The notes beneath the pieces were generated by a model. It saw nothing but the letters and a program-made list of their open reading frames with translations. It had not been told where the DNA came from and ran no database searches. The position numbers were made by a program, and so were the translations under genes. Shown here in pieces: positions 12,022-23,183 of a DNA stretch of 23,199 bases (positions are counted from its first letter, which is position 1; each line of letters opens with the position of its first letter). The stretch comes from a virus, in IMG/VR virus record IMGVR_UViG_3300025282_000253, positions 1-23,199 of that record. The stretch is one strand, 5' to 3'.

Positions 12022-12513
12022 TCAATCAATCGTGTAGAAACACGCAAGATTGATGGTTCCAGTGAGGGCTGCGGTTGCCGTGGTGAGGATCACAGTGGTT
12101 TCTGCAGTGAGTGCATAACCAAATGCGTCAATACCTGTTCCACTTACTCCTCCCAAAAGAGTCAGATTGCTATCTGATGCATGTGCCTTCGGGTGCATGT
12201 AGTGGACTTTGTTGGCATCTCCACAGATTGACTCTGTGATGAACCGATTGGGATCACTGGAATCTCCAACCTGAAGGGTTCCTGACGAACTCAGATCATC
12301 TGTGATCAAGATCATCTGCCAGATTCTTGCTCCATTTGGAAGCTTGAACATGGAGATGGTGGACCCTGATGCAAGGCTGGATGCCTCATAAGTGTCGTAT
12401 GCGACCCTCATGCGACCACCAACTTCTGACACAGGCACTTGTGACTGTGCAGACGTGGAGCCAGACTCGATTGGGTAATTTTTGGTGTAATTTACACCAT
12501 ATACTGCTGCCAT
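12022..12513 (-). CDS. Putative capsid decoration/stabilisation protein
   Basis: 163 residues. The composition is that of a small beta-rich structural protein: many G, S, T and A, few charged residues, with strand-like segments SMFKLPNGARIWQMILITDD and a C-terminal run of TTVILTTATAALTGTINLACF. It directly follows the major capsid gene (21 bases between the coding regions) and has a strong Shine-Dalgarno AGGAG 7 bases before ATG 12513. Genes in this position in similar podoviruses often code for head-stabilising or decoration proteins, but no diagnostic motif was recognised here. The call is based on context and composition. The hairpin after its stop suggests that capsid and decoration messages may be made in higher amounts than the tail genes. 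Confidence 0.5.
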   Translation of the reverse strand: MAAVYGVNYTKNYPIESGSTSAQSQVPVSEVGGRMRVAYDTYEASSLASGSTISMFKLPNGARIWQMILITDDLSSSGTLQVGDSSDPNRFITESICGDANKVHYMHPKAHASDSNLTLLGGVSGTGIDAFGYALTAETTVILTTATAALTGTINLACFYTID

Positions 12514-17022: not shown

Positions 17023-17427
17023 TTAATGATTCTTGTGTGTGTTCATGACTCTTTCAAAAAGATGCCAGTTTTCATTGCCGTCTTCTCCACTGATTCTGTC
17101 AAGACGCTTATCCAACAGAAAGTGGAAGGGACTCGTTTCCTCGCATAAAATCAAATACTTTGTGATTCTGTTTTCTAACATTAAACTCTCCAAAATTGAC
17201 CACATTCCCAAGGAGTCCCTCTTGGTGCAGTATTCCCTGTCCATCTGTAATAGAACTGTTGGAGATCCAAGACAGAATGATCCAATGATTCTTCCTTCCT
17301 TTCTTAAAACGTGGGTTGGATGCACTGGAGTGCTGGATTCTGTTCTTGTTCTTTGAAATTGTTCTAACAATTCCTTGTGTTGTTCCTTTGTCTCCAAAGG
17401 TTCTGCGCGTAAATGATCAAGACTCAT
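17023..17427 (-). CDS. Hypothetical protein, possible GNAT-like fold
   Basis: 134 residues. The central segment has the pattern PTHVLRKEGRIIGSFCLGSP, then TVLLQMDREYCTKRDSL, then a helix and KYLILCEETSPFHFLLDKRLDRI. This resembles small podovirus proteins found next to terminase with a HV-x-x-[KD]-G-x-[IV]-x-G hairpin and a final N/E-x-SP-[FY] block, which are suspected to have an acetyltransferase-like (GNAT) fold. No clear acetyl-CoA loop (Q/R-x-x-G-x-G/A) is visible, so activity is doubtful. The ATG overlaps the terminase TGA as ATGA, so the gene is coupled to the terminase. Role unknown. Confidence 0.55.
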   Translation of the reverse strand: MSLDHLRAEPLETKEQHKELLEQFQRTRTESSTPVHPTHVLRKEGRIIGSFCLGSPTVLLQMDREYCTKRDSLGMWSILESLMLENRITKYLILCEETSPFHFLLDKRLDRISGEDGNENWHLFERVMNTHKNH

Positions 17428-18899
17428 GCAACATCCAACATCTCAAAGGGGTCATAATCTGAAAACCCCTGTGCCCTCTCTGGACGTGCCTGAAAAATCC
17501 CTGTTCTTCCAAACCTGCCAATTGACATTACTCCATACCTGGATGCACTCATTAAATCATCTCTTGTTCTTACTACCTTTCCATCTTTTCTATGGTACAT
17601 CCTGTATTCCTCAAACCAGTCTCCTAAGTGAGAGAATACCTTCAAAAGTCCTGTCTGGAACCTTGTGAGCATCTCCTGCAACCCTGGTTCCACGCTGATT
17701 GATCCATCTGGGTTTGTGAAATGTGAACCTGACATCTCAACGCCTGCACGTCTGTATTGCTGGCTTAATCCAACTCCACTTGCCTTGTCGTGCTGTGCCC
17801 CGTCATGTGGCCACACACATGGAATCCAGTCTCCTCTTTGCTTGATTGCATGTGCGTGTACCAAAATGGTTGCGTGTGCTTGCCTGTAACAATCATAAAT
17901 GTAGATTGTGTCTCCATCCCTGTCGTGTGCAAACCAAACAACTGCAGTTGGATGGTTCCATCCAAAATCAATTGCACACATTCTTGCCCAGTGTTCTGGG
18001 ATTGAAAAGGAATCACACTTGATATCCTCCTCTGGAATTGGAAAGACAACTCCTGAACCTAAAACTGGCAGACCCTGACTCCGCATCTTCCTCTCATGCT
18101 CTGGAAGTGCAGAGTAAATCTCCTCCTTGAGATTGTCTGTCAGATGAGATGCGTCATCCCATGTTGCCCTGTAAAGTGCTTGTCCTGGTTTGATGGAGTT
18201 GATGAATTGTGCCGTGATCTCATCCATTCCCTTCTCTGGAGTGTATGTCAAATACACAAGTCCTGCAGTGTTCAGGGTTGCTCTCAGGGCTTGAGAATAA
18301 ACTGCTTGTCCACATAACTCATCAAACCAGACGACATCTACGCTTTTGCCCATGAATGCCTCTGGACCTGAATCATAACTCTTGAAGAAGAGTTTGGAGT
18401 TCATTCCAGACTTGTGGCGTATGATAACACTTGAAACTGCGTTTGGAACTCCTGGGTTTCTGTCTGTGTCTATAATCAAATCCTCTGGAATTGCTGCTTT
18501 TCCAAATTGTGTCTTGTCTCCGGGTTCTCCCAACAACTCTGCTTGTAAAATATCTCTTGTGTTGTAGTGAGACTGTCCTGCTGCCCATCCCAAAATTGGA
18601 CCTTCAAATCTGTGGCCCTCCCACCACTCTGGGTACCATCCTGTCAGGTGAAAAGACATCTCCATTGCACCACAAAATGTCTTTCCAACCTTGTTTGCGG
18701 CCATCAGACACCTCTGACGTGCCCGTCCTCCTGTCTCTGACCGCGCACAGTGAAACTCCCTCTGGTAGGGATATGGATTGTATGAGAGCATCTGGTATCT
18801 TCCTCTTGATGCGTCATACTCGTCCTTTAATTCTAGTAACTCCTCCAAATCCAAGTCTGGAGAAGTTCCTGTGCCTGATCCTGAAGGGAAACTATCCAT
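17424..18899 (-). CDS. terL: Terminase large subunit
   Basis: 491 residues with both motor and nuclease signatures. ATPase: Walker A AANKVGKT at residues 67-74 and Walker B VDVVWFDE at 187-194, with catalytic Glu194; coupling-type motif YLTYTPEKG near 216-224. Nuclease (RNase H-like): Asp311 in AIDFGWNHP, Asp366 in WPHDG, and Asp447/448 in RTRDDLMSASRYGVM. These fit the phage terminase family that translocates DNA into the procapsid through the portal and cuts it. The start ATG 18899 has only a weak ribosome-binding site, so translation may depend on coupling to the frameshifted small frame ending 5 bases upstream. The 3' end overlaps the GNAT-like gene as ATGA. Confidence 0.95.
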   Translation of the reverse strand: MDSFPSGSGTGTSPDLDLEELLELKDEYDASRGRYQMLSYNPYPYQREFHCARSETGGRARQRCLMAANKVGKTFCGAMEMSFHLTGWYPEWWEGHRFEGPILGWAAGQSHYNTRDILQAELLGEPGDKTQFGKAAIPEDLIIDTDRNPGVPNAVSSVIIRHKSGMNSKLFFKSYDSGPEAFMGKSVDVVWFDELCGQAVYSQALRATLNTAGLVYLTYTPEKGMDEITAQFINSIKPGQALYRATWDDASHLTDNLKEEIYSALPEHERKMRSQGLPVLGSGVVFPIPEEDIKCDSFSIPEHWARMCAIDFGWNHPTAVVWFAHDRDGDTIYIYDCYRQAHATILVHAHAIKQRGDWIPCVWPHDGAQHDKASGVGLSQQYRRAGVEMSGSHFTNPDGSISVEPGLQEMLTRFQTGLLKVFSHLGDWFEEYRMYHRKDGKVVRTRDDLMSASRYGVMSIGRFGRTGIFQARPERAQGFSDYDPFEMLDVA

Positions 18900-18933: not shown

Positions 18934-19044
18934 CTACAACACAAGTAACGGTACTTGCCGATGAGATTGCATGGACACTACTGTCTTTGCAATCTCGCCT
19001 GGTAACATCGTTGCGATGATTGAAATTGTTGCTGCGTCTGCCAT
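18934..19044 (-). CDS. Very small gene with possible -1 frameshift extension
   Basis: ATG 19044 has a good Shine-Dalgarno (AGGA, 8 bases spacing). In the zero frame it codes for 36 residues and stops at TAG 18934-18936. The first 20 codons read MADAATISIIATMLPGEIAK. In the -1 frame from GCAAAG (A-AAG slip site, about 18983-18988) the reading continues DSSVHAISSASTVTCVVAAL and LDDVSV to TAA 18905-18907, just 5 bases before the terminase ATG, which fits the packing of the operon better than the zero-frame stop. There is no start codon for the -1 frame alone. Either programmed frameshifting, a real or sequencing frameshift, or chance could explain this. Function unknown. Confidence 0.5.
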   Translation of the reverse strand: MADAATISIIATMLPGEIAKTVVSMQSHRQVPLLVL

Positions 19045-19078
19045 TTTATTTTTCCTGAAATTTGGTTCGTGATTGCTC

Positions 19079-19645
19079 TTAGTTTAACTCGCTGGAGGCA
19101 GGAGTGGAAACAGTTGGGGAAAGGGTGTCCCCTGCTGGCTGAGATGCGGCCACTCCTGCCGTAGTTCCGTTTATTACTCTTGCCTTTCCCATGATCATGT
19201 CTGCGACATCCCTTCCAAATCGCTCCCGCATCTCCTCCTCAATCTCCACAGGAGTTCGGGATCTTGTGTCTTCAATCTCTAACTTTGAAAGCTCACTTGC
19301 CTTGAATCCTGCGCGGTCTAGCAAATCCTTGGTTGCAACATAACGGACTTGCTCGGATTCTGCGCCAAATGCAAGACTTACCAAGTTGTCTAATGATTTC
19401 AGAGAGACTGTTCCTAACCTTGATCTCACCTCCTTCTCAATCTGCCTCGCTAACTGCTTGCGCTTAATTCCGATGCTTGACTGTCCTAAATCAAACTTTG
19501 TTGCTAATTCCCGCGAAGACATTCCTTCTGCTGCGTCCCTAGAAAATTCCTCGTCCCGCTTCTGCTTTGTCCTGTGGGTGGGGTGGGGTAACTTCTTCTT
19601 CTTCCTCAAATTTAATCCCCGTGTTTGAGAGGGAATAGACCTCAT
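19079..19645 (-). CDS. terS: Putative terminase small subunit (HTH protein)
   Basis: 188 residues. After a basic N-terminus (LRKKKKLPHPTHRTKQKRDE), residues 34-66 look like a helix-turn-helix (SRDAAEGMSSRELATKFDLG, then QSSIGIKRKQLARQI), as in small terminase subunits that bind the packaging site. A helical region (SLDNLVSLAFGAESEQVRYV, ATKDLLDRAGF) may form the oligomerisation part, followed by MRERFGRDVADMIMGKAR and a disordered S/T/P tail. It lies at the head of the late block, two genes before the large subunit, which is the normal place. The ATG at 19645 has no evident Shine-Dalgarno, and a shorter start cannot be excluded (Met42 would lose part of the helix-turn-helix). Identity rests on order and architecture. 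Confidence 0.7.
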   Translation of the reverse strand: MRSIPSQTRGLNLRKKKKLPHPTHRTKQKRDEEFSRDAAEGMSSRELATKFDLGQSSIGIKRKQLARQIEKEVRSRLGTVSLKSLDNLVSLAFGAESEQVRYVATKDLLDRAGFKASELSKLEIEDTRSRTPVEIEEEMRERFGRDVADMIMGKARVINGTTAGVAASQPAGDTLSPTVSTPASSELN

Positions 19646-19654
19646 ATATCAAGA

Positions 19655-19920
19655 GGGCCGTTTTGTTGCCCCCTATGGGTCTTTTGTCCGCACAAATAGG
19701 GCGGATCGGGCCTGAATCGCTTAAGTGCCTGAAATCATGAGCGATTTGCTAAGGGTCCACTTATTAGTCTGACCTGTTTCCGTATCAGGTGCAATATCAA
19801 TCGGGCGTGAGCCGTTGCCAGCACTGGCAGGACATCGGATTGGCAAACAGGTGTCCTTGTTTCCGGAGGGGTTTGGGCGTGTCCTGGTGTCGGGTCGCTG
19901 GGAGTCGAGCAAGCGGATTT
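19655..19920. other. GC-rich non-coding stretch with inverted repeats (leader or packaging-site candidate)
   Basis: Between the small terminase gene and the AT-rich repeats there are about 270 bases with higher GC and several dyads: AATCGCT/AGCGATT (19715-19721 with 19740-19746), ACCTG/CAGGT (about 19772-19790) and TGCCAG-CA-CTGGCA (about 19814-19829). Three overlapping frames on the minus strand are open here, but none has a good ribosome-binding site or protein-like sequence, and they were not called. It would be the 5' leader of the late mRNA and is also a plausible place for a terminase recognition site. Function is inference. Confidence 0.4.
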
Positions 19921-19924
19921 CCAA

Positions 19925-19953
19925 CTAATAGGTGCAGAAGCAAATAATTGCAA
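19925..19953 (-). promoter_or_regulatory. Weak sigma70-like promoter candidate for the late block
   Basis: On the minus strand, TTGCAA (19948-19953) and TATTAG (19925-19930) are separated by 17 bases; each matches 4 of 6 consensus positions. It would start a leader of about 270 bases before the small terminase gene. Weak match, right place and spacing. Confidence 0.35.
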
Positions 19954-20008
19954 GTAAACTTGTTATTCTTTACTTTTAGCACTTATCTATTTACTTTTCA
20001 TCTATTGA

Positions 20009-20192
20009 ATATTCAACTATCAGTATATTTAAGAAGTCAAACATAGTCTAAGTCGGAAAGCATTCAAGAACTAGAATATACAAGAATCTAAATATACCAG
20101 AAATAGAATATTGCAGGAAGTCAAATACAGGTTGAGAGCCGCTTGTCAATATTCAAGAAACAGTATATTCAAGAAGTCAAATATAGATTAAG
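20009..20192. repeat. Array of degenerate 16-17 base repeats (iteron/operator-like)
   Basis: AT-rich array between the divergent blocks. The clearest unit is ATATTCAAGAAGTCAA. A 46-base composite unit occurs at 20007-20052 and again at 20147-20192 with 38 of 46 bases equal, both ending in AAGAAGTCAAA-ATAG-TTAAG-like sequence; a third copy with one extra base is at 20098-20136 and a partial copy at 20062-20086 (21 of 25 equal to the 20152-20176 segment). Inside each composite the 16-base unit is itself repeated (20009-20024, 20025-20040 and so on), so about ten degenerate sites are present at 1.5 helical turns. Such arrays are common as replication-initiator or regulator binding sites. It is not a CRISPR array: units are contiguous with no unique spacers. 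Confidence 0.7.
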
Positions 20193-20251
20193 CGTGTTTT
20201 GGCCAGGTTGTCTTCTACTTGAGAAAAAAGCCAAGGGATGAAAGAAAAGGC

Positions 20252-20278
20252 TTGACTCTCATCATTCAATATAATAAT
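20252..20278 (+). promoter_or_regulatory. Rightward promoter candidate
   Basis: TTGACT (20252-20257) is 5 of 6 for the -35 box, and AATAAT (20273-20278) is 5 of 6 for the -10 box with a short 15-base spacer; an exact TATAAT at 20270-20275 overlaps it but gives only 12 bases. Transcription would start near 20285 and run into the gene at 20377. It follows the repeat array, which could control it. Confidence 0.4.
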
Positions 20279-20307
20279 CTACGGATAAGCTAAGGAAAGC
20301 CTTGGCC

Positions 20308-20345
20308 TTGAGTACCTGTTTTTGTGGTAGATTTCAGGTACTTAA
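20308..20345 (+). promoter_or_regulatory. 11-base-pair inverted repeat in the leader
   Basis: TTGAGTACCTG (20308-20318) and CAGGTACTTAA (20335-20345) can pair over 11 positions (one G-T), with a 16-base T-rich loop. It sits between the promoter candidate and the first gene of the rightward block. It could be an operator dyad or an RNA hairpin that controls the leader; there is no T-tract after it, so it is not a plain terminator. Confidence 0.55.
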
Positions 20346-20376
20346 AGCGAGAAACCATCACACGAAAAGGGGATGC

Positions 20377-20529
20377 ATGTCCTATTCCTTAGAAGTACCC
20401 ACAGAAAAACAAGAAGCCGCCGAACGCGACTTTTTCGCCGACTACGCAGCCGTAACAGGGGAAAGCCCACTAGTCTTTGAATCCTTTGACGATGCGCTTG
20501 ACGCGCTGGACGCGCTGGAGGCATCATGA
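20377..20529 (+). CDS. Small acidic hypothetical protein (50 aa)
   Basis: ATG 20377 is preceded by AAAAGGGG at good distance; an upstream TTG frame start at 20302 would run through the inverted repeat and is rejected. The 50 residues begin MSYSLEVPTEKQEAAERDFF and end with a strongly acidic repeat, DDALDALDALEAS. Such small acidic early proteins in phages often mimic DNA or bind host proteins, but nothing specific is recognised here. It is the first gene of the rightward block and its TGA overlaps the ATG of the GP88-like gene (ATGA), so the two are co-translated. Confidence 0.65.
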   Translation: MSYSLEVPTEKQEAAERDFFADYAAVTGESPLVFESFDDALDALDALEAS

Positions 20530-21158
20530 CCATCAAGGAAGCACTTGAGACGGTAGGCGGTCTATCCACACCATCTAAAATGCCATGCTTCGGTTATTCG
20601 ATTCCAGCGGGGCATTGCATCACGGGGAGCAAGCTATGGTCTGTCCCTGGGACAGTCTGTTTTGACTGTTACGCGCGTAAGGGCCGTTACATGTTCCGGA
20701 ACGTCAGGGAAGCTTTGGAGCGCAGGTTTCAAAGCCTGCATGATCCACGATGGACTGAAAGCATGGCGTACCTAATAAAGGAACGCAAGATGGAGTATTT
20801 CCGCTGGCACGATTCCGGGGATCTCCAGGGAGTGTGGCACTTGTCGCAGATATGCGAAGTTGCCCGGCAAACTCCGAAGTGTTCACACTGGTTGCCGACA
20901 AGGGAAACCCGGATAGTCAAAGCCTACCTTGACGAGTATTGGTTTGGCATACCTGAAAACCTGAACGTCCGCATATCGGCAATGGCATTTGACAAGTCAC
21001 CGCCGATACGTTTTGCTCGCAAGTATTGCTTGACGGTTAGCGGTGCAAGCTCTAACGGTTCCCACACTTGTCCGGCTCCGGATCAGGGGAACAGTTGCGG
21101 GGACTGCCGGGAGTGCTGGGATTCAAAAACTTTTTCCATTTCATACCAAAAACACTAG
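20526..21158 (+). CDS. GP88-family cysteine-rich protein
   Basis: 210 residues with 11 cysteines. The blocks are those of the phage GP88 family: KMPCFGYSIPAGHCITGSKL (Cys21, Cys31), VCFDCYARKGRY (Cys45-x-x-Cys48-Tyr-Ala), a FRWHDSGDLQG motif (His95, Asp96, Asp99), CSHWLPTRETRIVKAYL, and a C-terminal CPAPDQGNSCGDCRECWD cluster (Cys182, 191, 194, 197). The cysteine pattern suggests one or two metal sites, possibly iron-sulphur as in radical-SAM-like enzymes, but a three-Cys CxxxCxxC radical SAM motif was not seen. The family is widespread in phages and its function is not settled. The start overlaps the acidic 50-residue gene. Base composition here is more GC-rich than in the late genes. Confidence 0.75.
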   Translation: MTIKEALETVGGLSTPSKMPCFGYSIPAGHCITGSKLWSVPGTVCFDCYARKGRYMFRNVREALERRFQSLHDPRWTESMAYLIKERKMEYFRWHDSGDLQGVWHLSQICEVARQTPKCSHWLPTRETRIVKAYLDEYWFGIPENLNVRISAMAFDKSPPIRFARKYCLTVSGASSNGSHTCPAPDQGNSCGDCRECWDSKTFSISYQKH

Positions 21159-21168
21159 GAGAGAGGCC

Positions 21169-21336
21169 ATGAGTGATAAAAAAAAGAAGTGCAGATGCTG
21201 TGGCAAACCTGTCTGGCATTCAGATGGACATCCCATCCACACTGGATGTATCCGTAGGCACTGGATGCACCATGCAAAGGGCTTGGCAGCATCCCGCTGT
21301 CGAGAGTTCAAACCATCAACCAAGGGGTACAAATGA
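21169..21336 (+). CDS. Small zinc-finger-like protein (55 aa)
   Basis: ATG 21169 has AGGAGAGAGG just before it; longer in-frame versions begin inside the GP88-like gene and have no such site. The 55 residues start MSDKKKKCRCCGKPVWHSDG and contain Cys8, Cys10, Cys11, His17, His21, His24, Cys27, His31, His34, His35 and Cys44, with the spacing CxxC-like / H-x-x-x-H / C typical of a small zinc-binding knuckle. It is strongly basic and ends EFKPSTKGYK. It may bind nucleic acid or a host protein. The TGA stop overlaps the next ATG (ATGA). Confidence 0.65.
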   Translation: MSDKKKKCRCCGKPVWHSDGHPIHTGCIRRHWMHHAKGLAASRCREFKPSTKGYK

Positions 21337-21548
21337 GAACATTGACACTTATCCCGGCCTACGGACGGGACTACGGCTCTCAGAAAGCGGTCGCGGCAGA
21401 TTTCGCGGCTGACAAGGACTTTATAGTGCAGGACGTGAGTTGCCGCTGGGACGGCAAGATGGTGAACCGCATGGAAATGCGGGGACATTACAATCAAGCC
21501 CACATTCGCTACTCACGGTTGACGAAGCTAACCGTGATCAAAATTTAA
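21333..21548 (+). CDS. Conserved phage early protein, PAYGRDY type (71 aa)
   Basis: 71 residues: MRTLTLIPAYGRDYGSQKAV, then ADFAADKDFIVQDVSCRWDGKMVNRMEM and a C-terminal RYSRLTKLTVIKI. The combination L-x-PAYGRDY-x-S-x-KAV-x-x-D-[FW], KDFI, and YDGK/WDGK followed by an RY-x-x-L-x-x-x-x-VIK end is known in many small early proteins of T7-like and other phages. The function is unknown. It is translationally coupled to the zinc-finger-like gene by ATGA. Identification as a conserved family is from memory of the motif pattern; no activity is claimed. Confidence 0.7.
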   Translation: MRTLTLIPAYGRDYGSQKAVAADFAADKDFIVQDVSCRWDGKMVNRMEMRGHYNQAHIRYSRLTKLTVIKI

Positions 21549-22006: not shown

Positions 22007-22056
22007 GGTAATGACCTGTGACATTAGGTAATGACCTGTGCAGCAGGTAATGACTT
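22007..22056 (+). repeat. Tandem repeat GGTAATGACCTGTG (three units)
   Basis: GGTAATGACCTGTG occurs exactly at 22007-22020 and 22027-22040, and a shortened copy GGTAATGAC is at 22046-22054, with a period of 19-20 bases. A fourth GGTAATGACCT is at 22466-22476, where it forms a stop/start overlap between two genes. Units carry TAATG, so short frames can terminate and restart here (for example ATG 22011 to TAA 22029, overlapping ATG 22031). Could be operators at two helical turns or duplicated gene-junction sequence. Confidence 0.75.
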
Positions 22057-22231: not shown

Positions 22232-22470
22232 GAAATTTCAGGACATTGTATAAGCCAAACACTGCATTCGGCGGTGCGGTATACTCTGCAACAACAGACG
22301 GGAAGTCCGTGAGGTTGCGGGAAGATGGAAAGTGCAAGCTGGAGATGAGCTTGCAGGATTTCGAGGCTCAGGTGCGAGAGATTGAGTGGGACTTCTCCAC
22401 AATCGCGGGATTGATTGCAGGAGATGGGGAACTTCTGGGTCCGGAGGACTTCAGAGATGACAATCGGTAA
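22228..22470 (+). CDS. Hypothetical early protein (80 aa)
   Basis: 80 residues, acidic at the C-terminus (GDGELLGPEDFRDDNR). The first half has short strand-like segments (AVYSATTDGKSVRLREDGKC) and the second a helical QDFEAQVREIEWDFSTIAG. No family recognised. It is coupled at both ends: ATGA with the 45-residue gene, and its TAA is part of a GGTAATGACC junction with the next frame. Confidence 0.6.
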   Translation: MRNFRTLYKPNTAFGGAVYSATTDGKSVRLREDGKCKLEMSLQDFEAQVREIEWDFSTIAGLIAGDGELLGPEDFRDDNR

Positions 22471-22490
22471 TGACCTTGAAAGGAGGTGAA

Positions 22491-22700
22491 ATGATTTACG
22501 ATGAAAAAAAGAAGTCTGAAATCTTCAAGAAGCTGAAACGCCGTCATGAATTGAGGTATCTCCTGGATTTCATAGGAGCAGAACTAGACAAGGAGGTTGA
22601 GGAGTGGCCTGTTGACGCTCCTAGCAATTCTCACTGGTCTGCATATCACCTGTCCAGGGGATATGACCAACTGAATCAGATTCTGAAGGAGACAGAATGA
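22491..22700 (+). CDS. Hypothetical early protein (69 aa)
   Basis: The start is set by AAGGAGGTGA at 22480-22489, an almost complete match to the 16S rRNA tail, directly before ATG 22491; an in-frame ATG at 22470 overlaps the previous stop and would add 7 residues. The 69 residues begin MIYDEKKKSEIFKKLKRRHE, strongly basic, followed by a helical LRYLLDFIGAELDKEVEEW and a C-terminal HWSAYHLSRGYDQLNQILKE helix. It looks like a small all-helical protein. No family recognised. The TGA overlaps the ATG of the next gene. Confidence 0.65.
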   Translation: MIYDEKKKSEIFKKLKRRHELRYLLDFIGAELDKEVEEWPVDAPSNSHWSAYHLSRGYDQLNQILKETE

Positions 22701-22951
22701 TTTACGATATTTCCCACACAGGGAATCGCCGTTGGGTGCTAGAGTCCGTTACACTTTCCGCATACACGGATCAATCCTTTGATGCCGTTGCGATCCCAAC
22801 CTATGGGGCAGACATAAACGGGGATGCACCTTCCTACTACCGTGCAGGAGTAGCATGGAAGGAGTGGGAGGCACTCACAGAGGGGCAGAGGATGCGTTTA
22901 CGCATGGAATTTCCAAACCTGACACCAAAGCAGAATAATGAAAGTCTTTAG
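22697..22951 (+). CDS. Hypothetical early protein (84 aa)
   Basis: 84 residues: MIYDISHTGNRRWVLESVTL, SAYTDQSFDAVAIPTYGADI, a tyrosine-containing loop and a C-terminal helix with WEALTEGQRMRLRMEFPNLT. The first 12 coding bases (ATGATTTACGAT) are the same as those of the gene before it. No family recognised; the mixed strands and the final helix suggest a small alpha/beta protein. Its start overlaps the previous stop and its end overlaps the next start by 14 bases, so it is in one translation unit. Confidence 0.6.
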   Translation: MIYDISHTGNRRWVLESVTLSAYTDQSFDAVAIPTYGADINGDAPSYYRAGVAWKEWEALTEGQRMRLRMEFPNLTPKQNNESL

Positions 22952-23183
22952 ACTGAAACTACCTGCACCAGTGCTGGTAAGATCAAGCGGGTATTACTTG
23001 GTTTACACTGCGTCCAAGAAGGACGCAGAGGCAGACATCAAGAGTTGGATTAAGCGTTTTCCTCAGTGGAAGAGAGAGCATTTCGACTTGGAGTGGATCA
23101 TCTTGAAGAACAAGGAAGATGTTGTCAGTGAGTTGAACAAGGCAATCACAGATTCTGTGAAGCGTGGACCAATAGGTATGTGA
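22938..23183 (+). CDS. Hypothetical early protein (81 aa)
   Basis: 81 residues from ATG 22938: MKVFRLKLPAPVLVRSSGYY followed by LVYTASKKDAEADIKSWIKR and a C-terminal helix (DVVSELNKAITDSVKRG). The layout (strand, turn, strand, helix, W/F-rich strand) resembles small early phage proteins that take residue values through a YYLVYTASKKDAE-type motif, but no family could be named. It overlaps the previous gene by 14 bases and lacks a strong ribosome-binding site, so it likely depends on coupling. It stops 16 bases before the right edge of the window. Confidence 0.6.
   Translation: MKVFRLKLPAPVLVRSSGYYLVYTASKKDAEADIKSWIKRFPQWKREHFDLEWIILKNKEDVVSELNKAITDSVKRGPIGM

Follow-up and report, generated by a model that had tools for sequence, protein, structure and literature searches.

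What is an array of iteron-like repeats doing where the late and early genes of a phage diverge? The window analysed here, a stretch of 23,199 nt, covers part of a temperate marine podovirus, and its near relatives are found among the viral contigs of IMG/VR. The original prediction proposed that the array is a replication origin or the site of a regulator that controls both directions. We argue instead that it is probably a lineage-specific degenerate tandem repeat within a fast-changing spacer between two conserved control regions. The array alone matters little, as a convincing iteron look need not mean an origin, and it is the comparison with relatives that distinguishes the two. That comparison also yielded two findings of greater interest than the array: a likelier origin for an NrS-1-type primase-polymerase phage, marked by ACTTCA boxes in three lineages, and an early leader RNA that resembles put.

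The array was predicted to lie between early and late blocks, and its setting bears this out. terS, terL, and the portal, capsid, and tail structural genes run leftward, and small early genes run rightward from 20377 (Table 1). A host search confirmed no terL relatives in genome contigs, the tRNA search found none, and there was no match to Rfam at the gathering threshold.

Table 1. Coordinates of the array, its neighbors, and the box regions on related contigs (positions are those of the window unless a contig is named).
Feature	Position	Strand	Remarks
terL, terminase large subunit	17424..18899	-	Pfam Terminase_6N/6C
terS, terminase small subunit	19079..19645	-	phrog_2538 and alignment; start codon uncertain
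Conserved element beside terS	19616..19860	-	kept in all four lineages; overlaps uncertain terS start
Hypervariable slot with array	19870..20245	.	differs by lineage
Repeat array	20007..20192	.	eight 16-nt units as four A-B dimers within 45-nt composites
First 45-nt composite	20008..20052	.	84% identity to 20148-20192
Last 45-nt composite	20148..20192	.	holds the best-preserved units
Early promoter-like site, TTGACT-17-TAATCT	20252..20280	+	by eye
Early leader RNA, two hairpins one nt apart	20289..20345	+	hairpins 20289-20306 and 20308-20345 (folding)
First early ORF (MSYSLEVPTEKQ...)	20377..20529	+	by eye similar to first early ORF of L006
GP88-family early gene	20526..21158	+	Pfam PF17338
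ACTTCA/TGAAGT box regions	L124:4769-5060; L123:7849-8038; L142:202-375 (minus strand)		outside the window

The description of the repeats themselves also held up. About ten degenerate units of 16-17 bases had been counted; a position weight matrix places eight 16-nt units (starts at 20009, 20025, 20060, 20076, 20092, 20109, 20149, and 20165; span 20009-20180), and the weaker third subunits seen by eye, ATAGTCTAAG, ATACAGGTTGAG, and ATATAGATTAAG, bring the total near ten. Each unit is made up of the core ATATTCAAGAA and a variable 5-nt tail. The units are irregularly spaced and alternate between two types, with mean matches of 10.8/16 for A-A, 11.2/16 for B-B, and 9.1/16 for A-B, and we therefore read the array as four A-B dimers. 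The larger composites, given as 46 bases in the prediction, measure 45 nt, and the first and last of them form the 84% identical pair; a partial copy lies at 20114-20136. The array contains 24 repeated 8-mer pairs, where 500 dinucleotide shuffles gave no more than 8 (run 1) or 11 (run 2), and its best ungapped self-match scores 31, against a shuffle maximum of 15. As predicted, it is AT-rich and non-coding, with 30% GC and no ORF of at least 60 aa across it. The unit had been called unfamiliar, and a DNA search with window positions 19000-21500 found no match in 50,697 phage records. When folded as a single strand, the array is unremarkable (z -1.55), and outside it the matrix finds only weaker, dispersed matches in the window (best 15.0 bits at 22521).

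Is the array conserved? The original prediction had offered conservation in relatives as its own test. Searching IMG/VR with terL recovered near-identical contigs together with two more distant clusters, at about 84% and 75% DNA identity; among the contigs from these clusters, L006 is an approximately 84%-identical relative, and L009 and L010 are approximately 75%-identical relatives. The array is not kept in L006, L009, or L010. Its core is present twice in four other near-identical contigs, as in the window, and when IMG/VR was scanned for exact occurrences of the core pattern, conspecific contigs alone were returned. In three contigs compared base by base the array is without any change, which is uninformative because these contigs are too alike elsewhere. 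In the available data, then, sequence comparison points to an array that is confined to one lineage.

The same slot in the relatives holds other DNA. In L006, one metagenomic contig, it carries unrelated microsatellites (GAGACCTTC x4.9 and GACCTTG x6.7) as well as a stretch whose GC content is 70-84%. The L006 segment 7920-8690 runs from these microsatellites into low-complexity DNA of up to 84% GC, in a phage that is about 50% GC around it, and the slot of L006 could be a misassembly. The slot of L009 and of L010 is AT-rich and has no significant repeats; in L010, a GP88-type gene comes closely after it. Between the window and L006, the promoter and leader are 72% identical and the terS-side element 72-78% identical at aligned positions, whereas the slot is 29% identical over the whole alignment.

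The two flanks are therefore kept while the slot is unrelated between the window and L006. On the terS side, the conserved element contains the fixed blocks CCCCGTGTTTGAGA, GGBCCGTTTTGT, and ATATCAATC, and the spacing from CCCCGTGTTTGAGA to GGBCCGTTTTGT is fixed across four lineages. We infer that this element is a candidate packaging site (cos/pac) or late promoter. Distant terL relatives (51-57% identity) have another layout upstream of terL, and the conserved element was not matched there. On the early side, the promoter-like site has a counterpart at the matching place in L006, TTGATA-17-TAGACT (also by eye). A stricter sigma-70 consensus scan of the region missed the site in the window; it gave two matches against 1.8 expected, one of them within the array on the minus strand.

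Could the array be a set of terminase-binding repeats that flank a cos or pac site? It lies about 360 nt from terS, past the conserved element and thus past a possible packaging site. However, TerS is conserved (54-71% identity) and the array is not, and the conserved part lies to the terS side of the array. We consider this explanation scarcely probable and rejected it on the grounds that terS is conserved and the array is not.

The proposal of an origin fares little better. In this reading, the repeats would be iterons, and a bound initiator would open the adjoining AT-rich DNA. Like the iteron origins of lambda and of RK2/P1-type plasmids, the array lies in AT-rich non-coding DNA and repeats a unit of similar length several times in direct orientation. 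Unlike them, it is irregular and degenerate, has no initiator gene adjoining, and is missing in close relatives. Its neighbors are terS and small early genes, and the PrimPol-helicase gene starts about 3.5 kb off in the conspecific contig L124, whose copy of the array is at about 1422-1607. The replication operon, which lies beyond the window in L124, encodes a 730-aa NrS-1-type PrimPol-HBD-helicase protein, a Holliday-junction resolvase, and a Sak4-like protein. The relatives' PrimPol is 69-77% identical, yet the array is absent there. GC skew had been suggested as a check and does flip at the array, but it also flips wherever genes in L124 change direction. Because skew tracks gene orientation everywhere, the flip is a coding effect that is uninformative on replication. 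Moreover, the NrS-1 enzyme begins DNA synthesis at TTTGGTTA or GTG (PMC8718748), and the octamer TTTGGTTA does not occur in the array; the window has one chance-level match, at 12116, and L124 has one.

A far better origin candidate, judging from sequence, lies outside the window at a distance of about 3.2 kb from the array, in the interval that separates an XRE-type regulator gene from the NrS-1-type PrimPol-helicase gene. ACTTCA/TGAAGT boxes cluster there in three lineages, with 11 in 292 nt (L124), 7 in 190 nt (L123), and 8 in 174 nt (the L009 lineage), against shuffle means of 0.12-0.19. In L124 and L123, the boxes surround an AT-rich core at positions that match, and a similar layout is seen in the L009 lineage. 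It is this conserved box array, rather than the repeat array, that adjoins a replication gene. Short boxes that adjoin AT-rich DNA are where papillomavirus E1 and SV40 T antigen load, and the ACTTCA-box layout would fit loading of this kind. The NrS-1 helicase domain has itself been likened by its authors to these two proteins (PMC7102993). The origin proposal for the array was thus not borne out: the repeats are unconserved, the skew follows gene direction, and a better candidate sits beside the PrimPol gene. We rejected it as very unlikely.

A different role would be regulatory. The array may be a set of binding sites for a lineage-specific regulator that fine-tunes both divergent promoters, late and early, with sites and protein changing together. 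L124 carries genes for DNA-binding proteins in its early and lysogeny regions, and candidates for such a regulator include, for example, the XRE-type 124-aa protein, the HTH_17 protein, and a late activator. Two observations favor this possibility and count against a plain repeat. First, the 11-nt core is better kept between units than the 5-nt tail, as a binding site would give. Second, the slot fits exactly between the conserved terS-side element and the early promoter, both of them control regions. The divergent-promoter operator arrays of temperate phages are placed likewise, with late genes leading away leftward and an early promoter pointing rightward. In contrast to those arrays, the repeats here are unconserved and do not recur at other control regions of the phage, either in the window or in L124. 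The array is also missing in close relatives that keep both flanks. We therefore regard a regulator array as possible but rather unlikely, although clearly ahead of an origin or of terminase binding.

A lineage-specific tandem repeat agrees best with these data. The slot of L006 contains a different repeat of opposite composition, L009 and L010 lack significant repeats, and the core is found in conspecifics only, all of which argues for this reading. In addition, the alternating A and B units sit inside longer 45-nt composites, the signature that stepwise duplication leaves. The array may thus have been born by slippage or duplication: a 16-mer would have been doubled into an A-B dimer, which would then have multiplied and decayed. 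Tandem repeats peculiar to one lineage in phage spacers show the same hierarchical duplication, unconserved sequence, and other repeats at the same place in a relative; the array is set apart from them only by its placement between two conserved control regions. It probably has no essential sequence-specific role. Any present role might be that of AT-rich upstream DNA, or of accessory sites for a factor peculiar to the lineage. A bolder idea is that the slot is a dedicated fast-evolving regulatory array, in which each lineage has its own repeats and its own fast-changing phage regulator. We think this improbable; if true, every phage would control its late/early switch in a way private to it.

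Downstream of the early promoter, the leader RNA is the second product of the comparison. In the window, L006, and L010 alike, it is predicted to fold into two hairpins that abut. Pairing of the first stem is kept despite changes on both sides, with A-U/G-C at the third pair from the loop and A-U/C-G at the fourth (by eye). HK022-type put RNA antiterminates in cis, by way of the zinc-binding domain of the RNA polymerase beta-prime subunit. The putL RNA of HK022 consists of two abutting hairpins, about 60 nt in all, just downstream of an early promoter (PMC9378689). The leader shares this two-hairpin architecture and its place after an early promoter. It differs from the HK022 put RNA in that it matches nothing in Rfam, even with E relaxed to 1, and in that L009 has the first hairpin alone.

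Other short elements recur in the early regions. At about 20350-20375 of the window, AAACCATC...GATG could form a short hairpin ahead of start codons; the early leaders of the window and L006 both have it, and it reappears farther along the early region of L125, downstream of a swapped cassette. In the window, the cassette at 22232-23180 is wholly different from that of the conspecific contigs L124, L125, and L128, and homology to conspecific contigs returns past it, at GAGACGCAGGGCAGCACC, the window's end. Finally, GGTAATGACC recurs, and all three lineages have it in their early operon. It lies at 22007, 22027, 22046 (one mismatch), and 22466 (+) in the window and also in the early regions of L123 and L124, with 7 exact copies in L123. 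Every copy lies on the early coding strand, many just 5' of gene starts and some within genes, and this placement in one orientation recalls, by analogy, the stoperators of mycobacteriophages.
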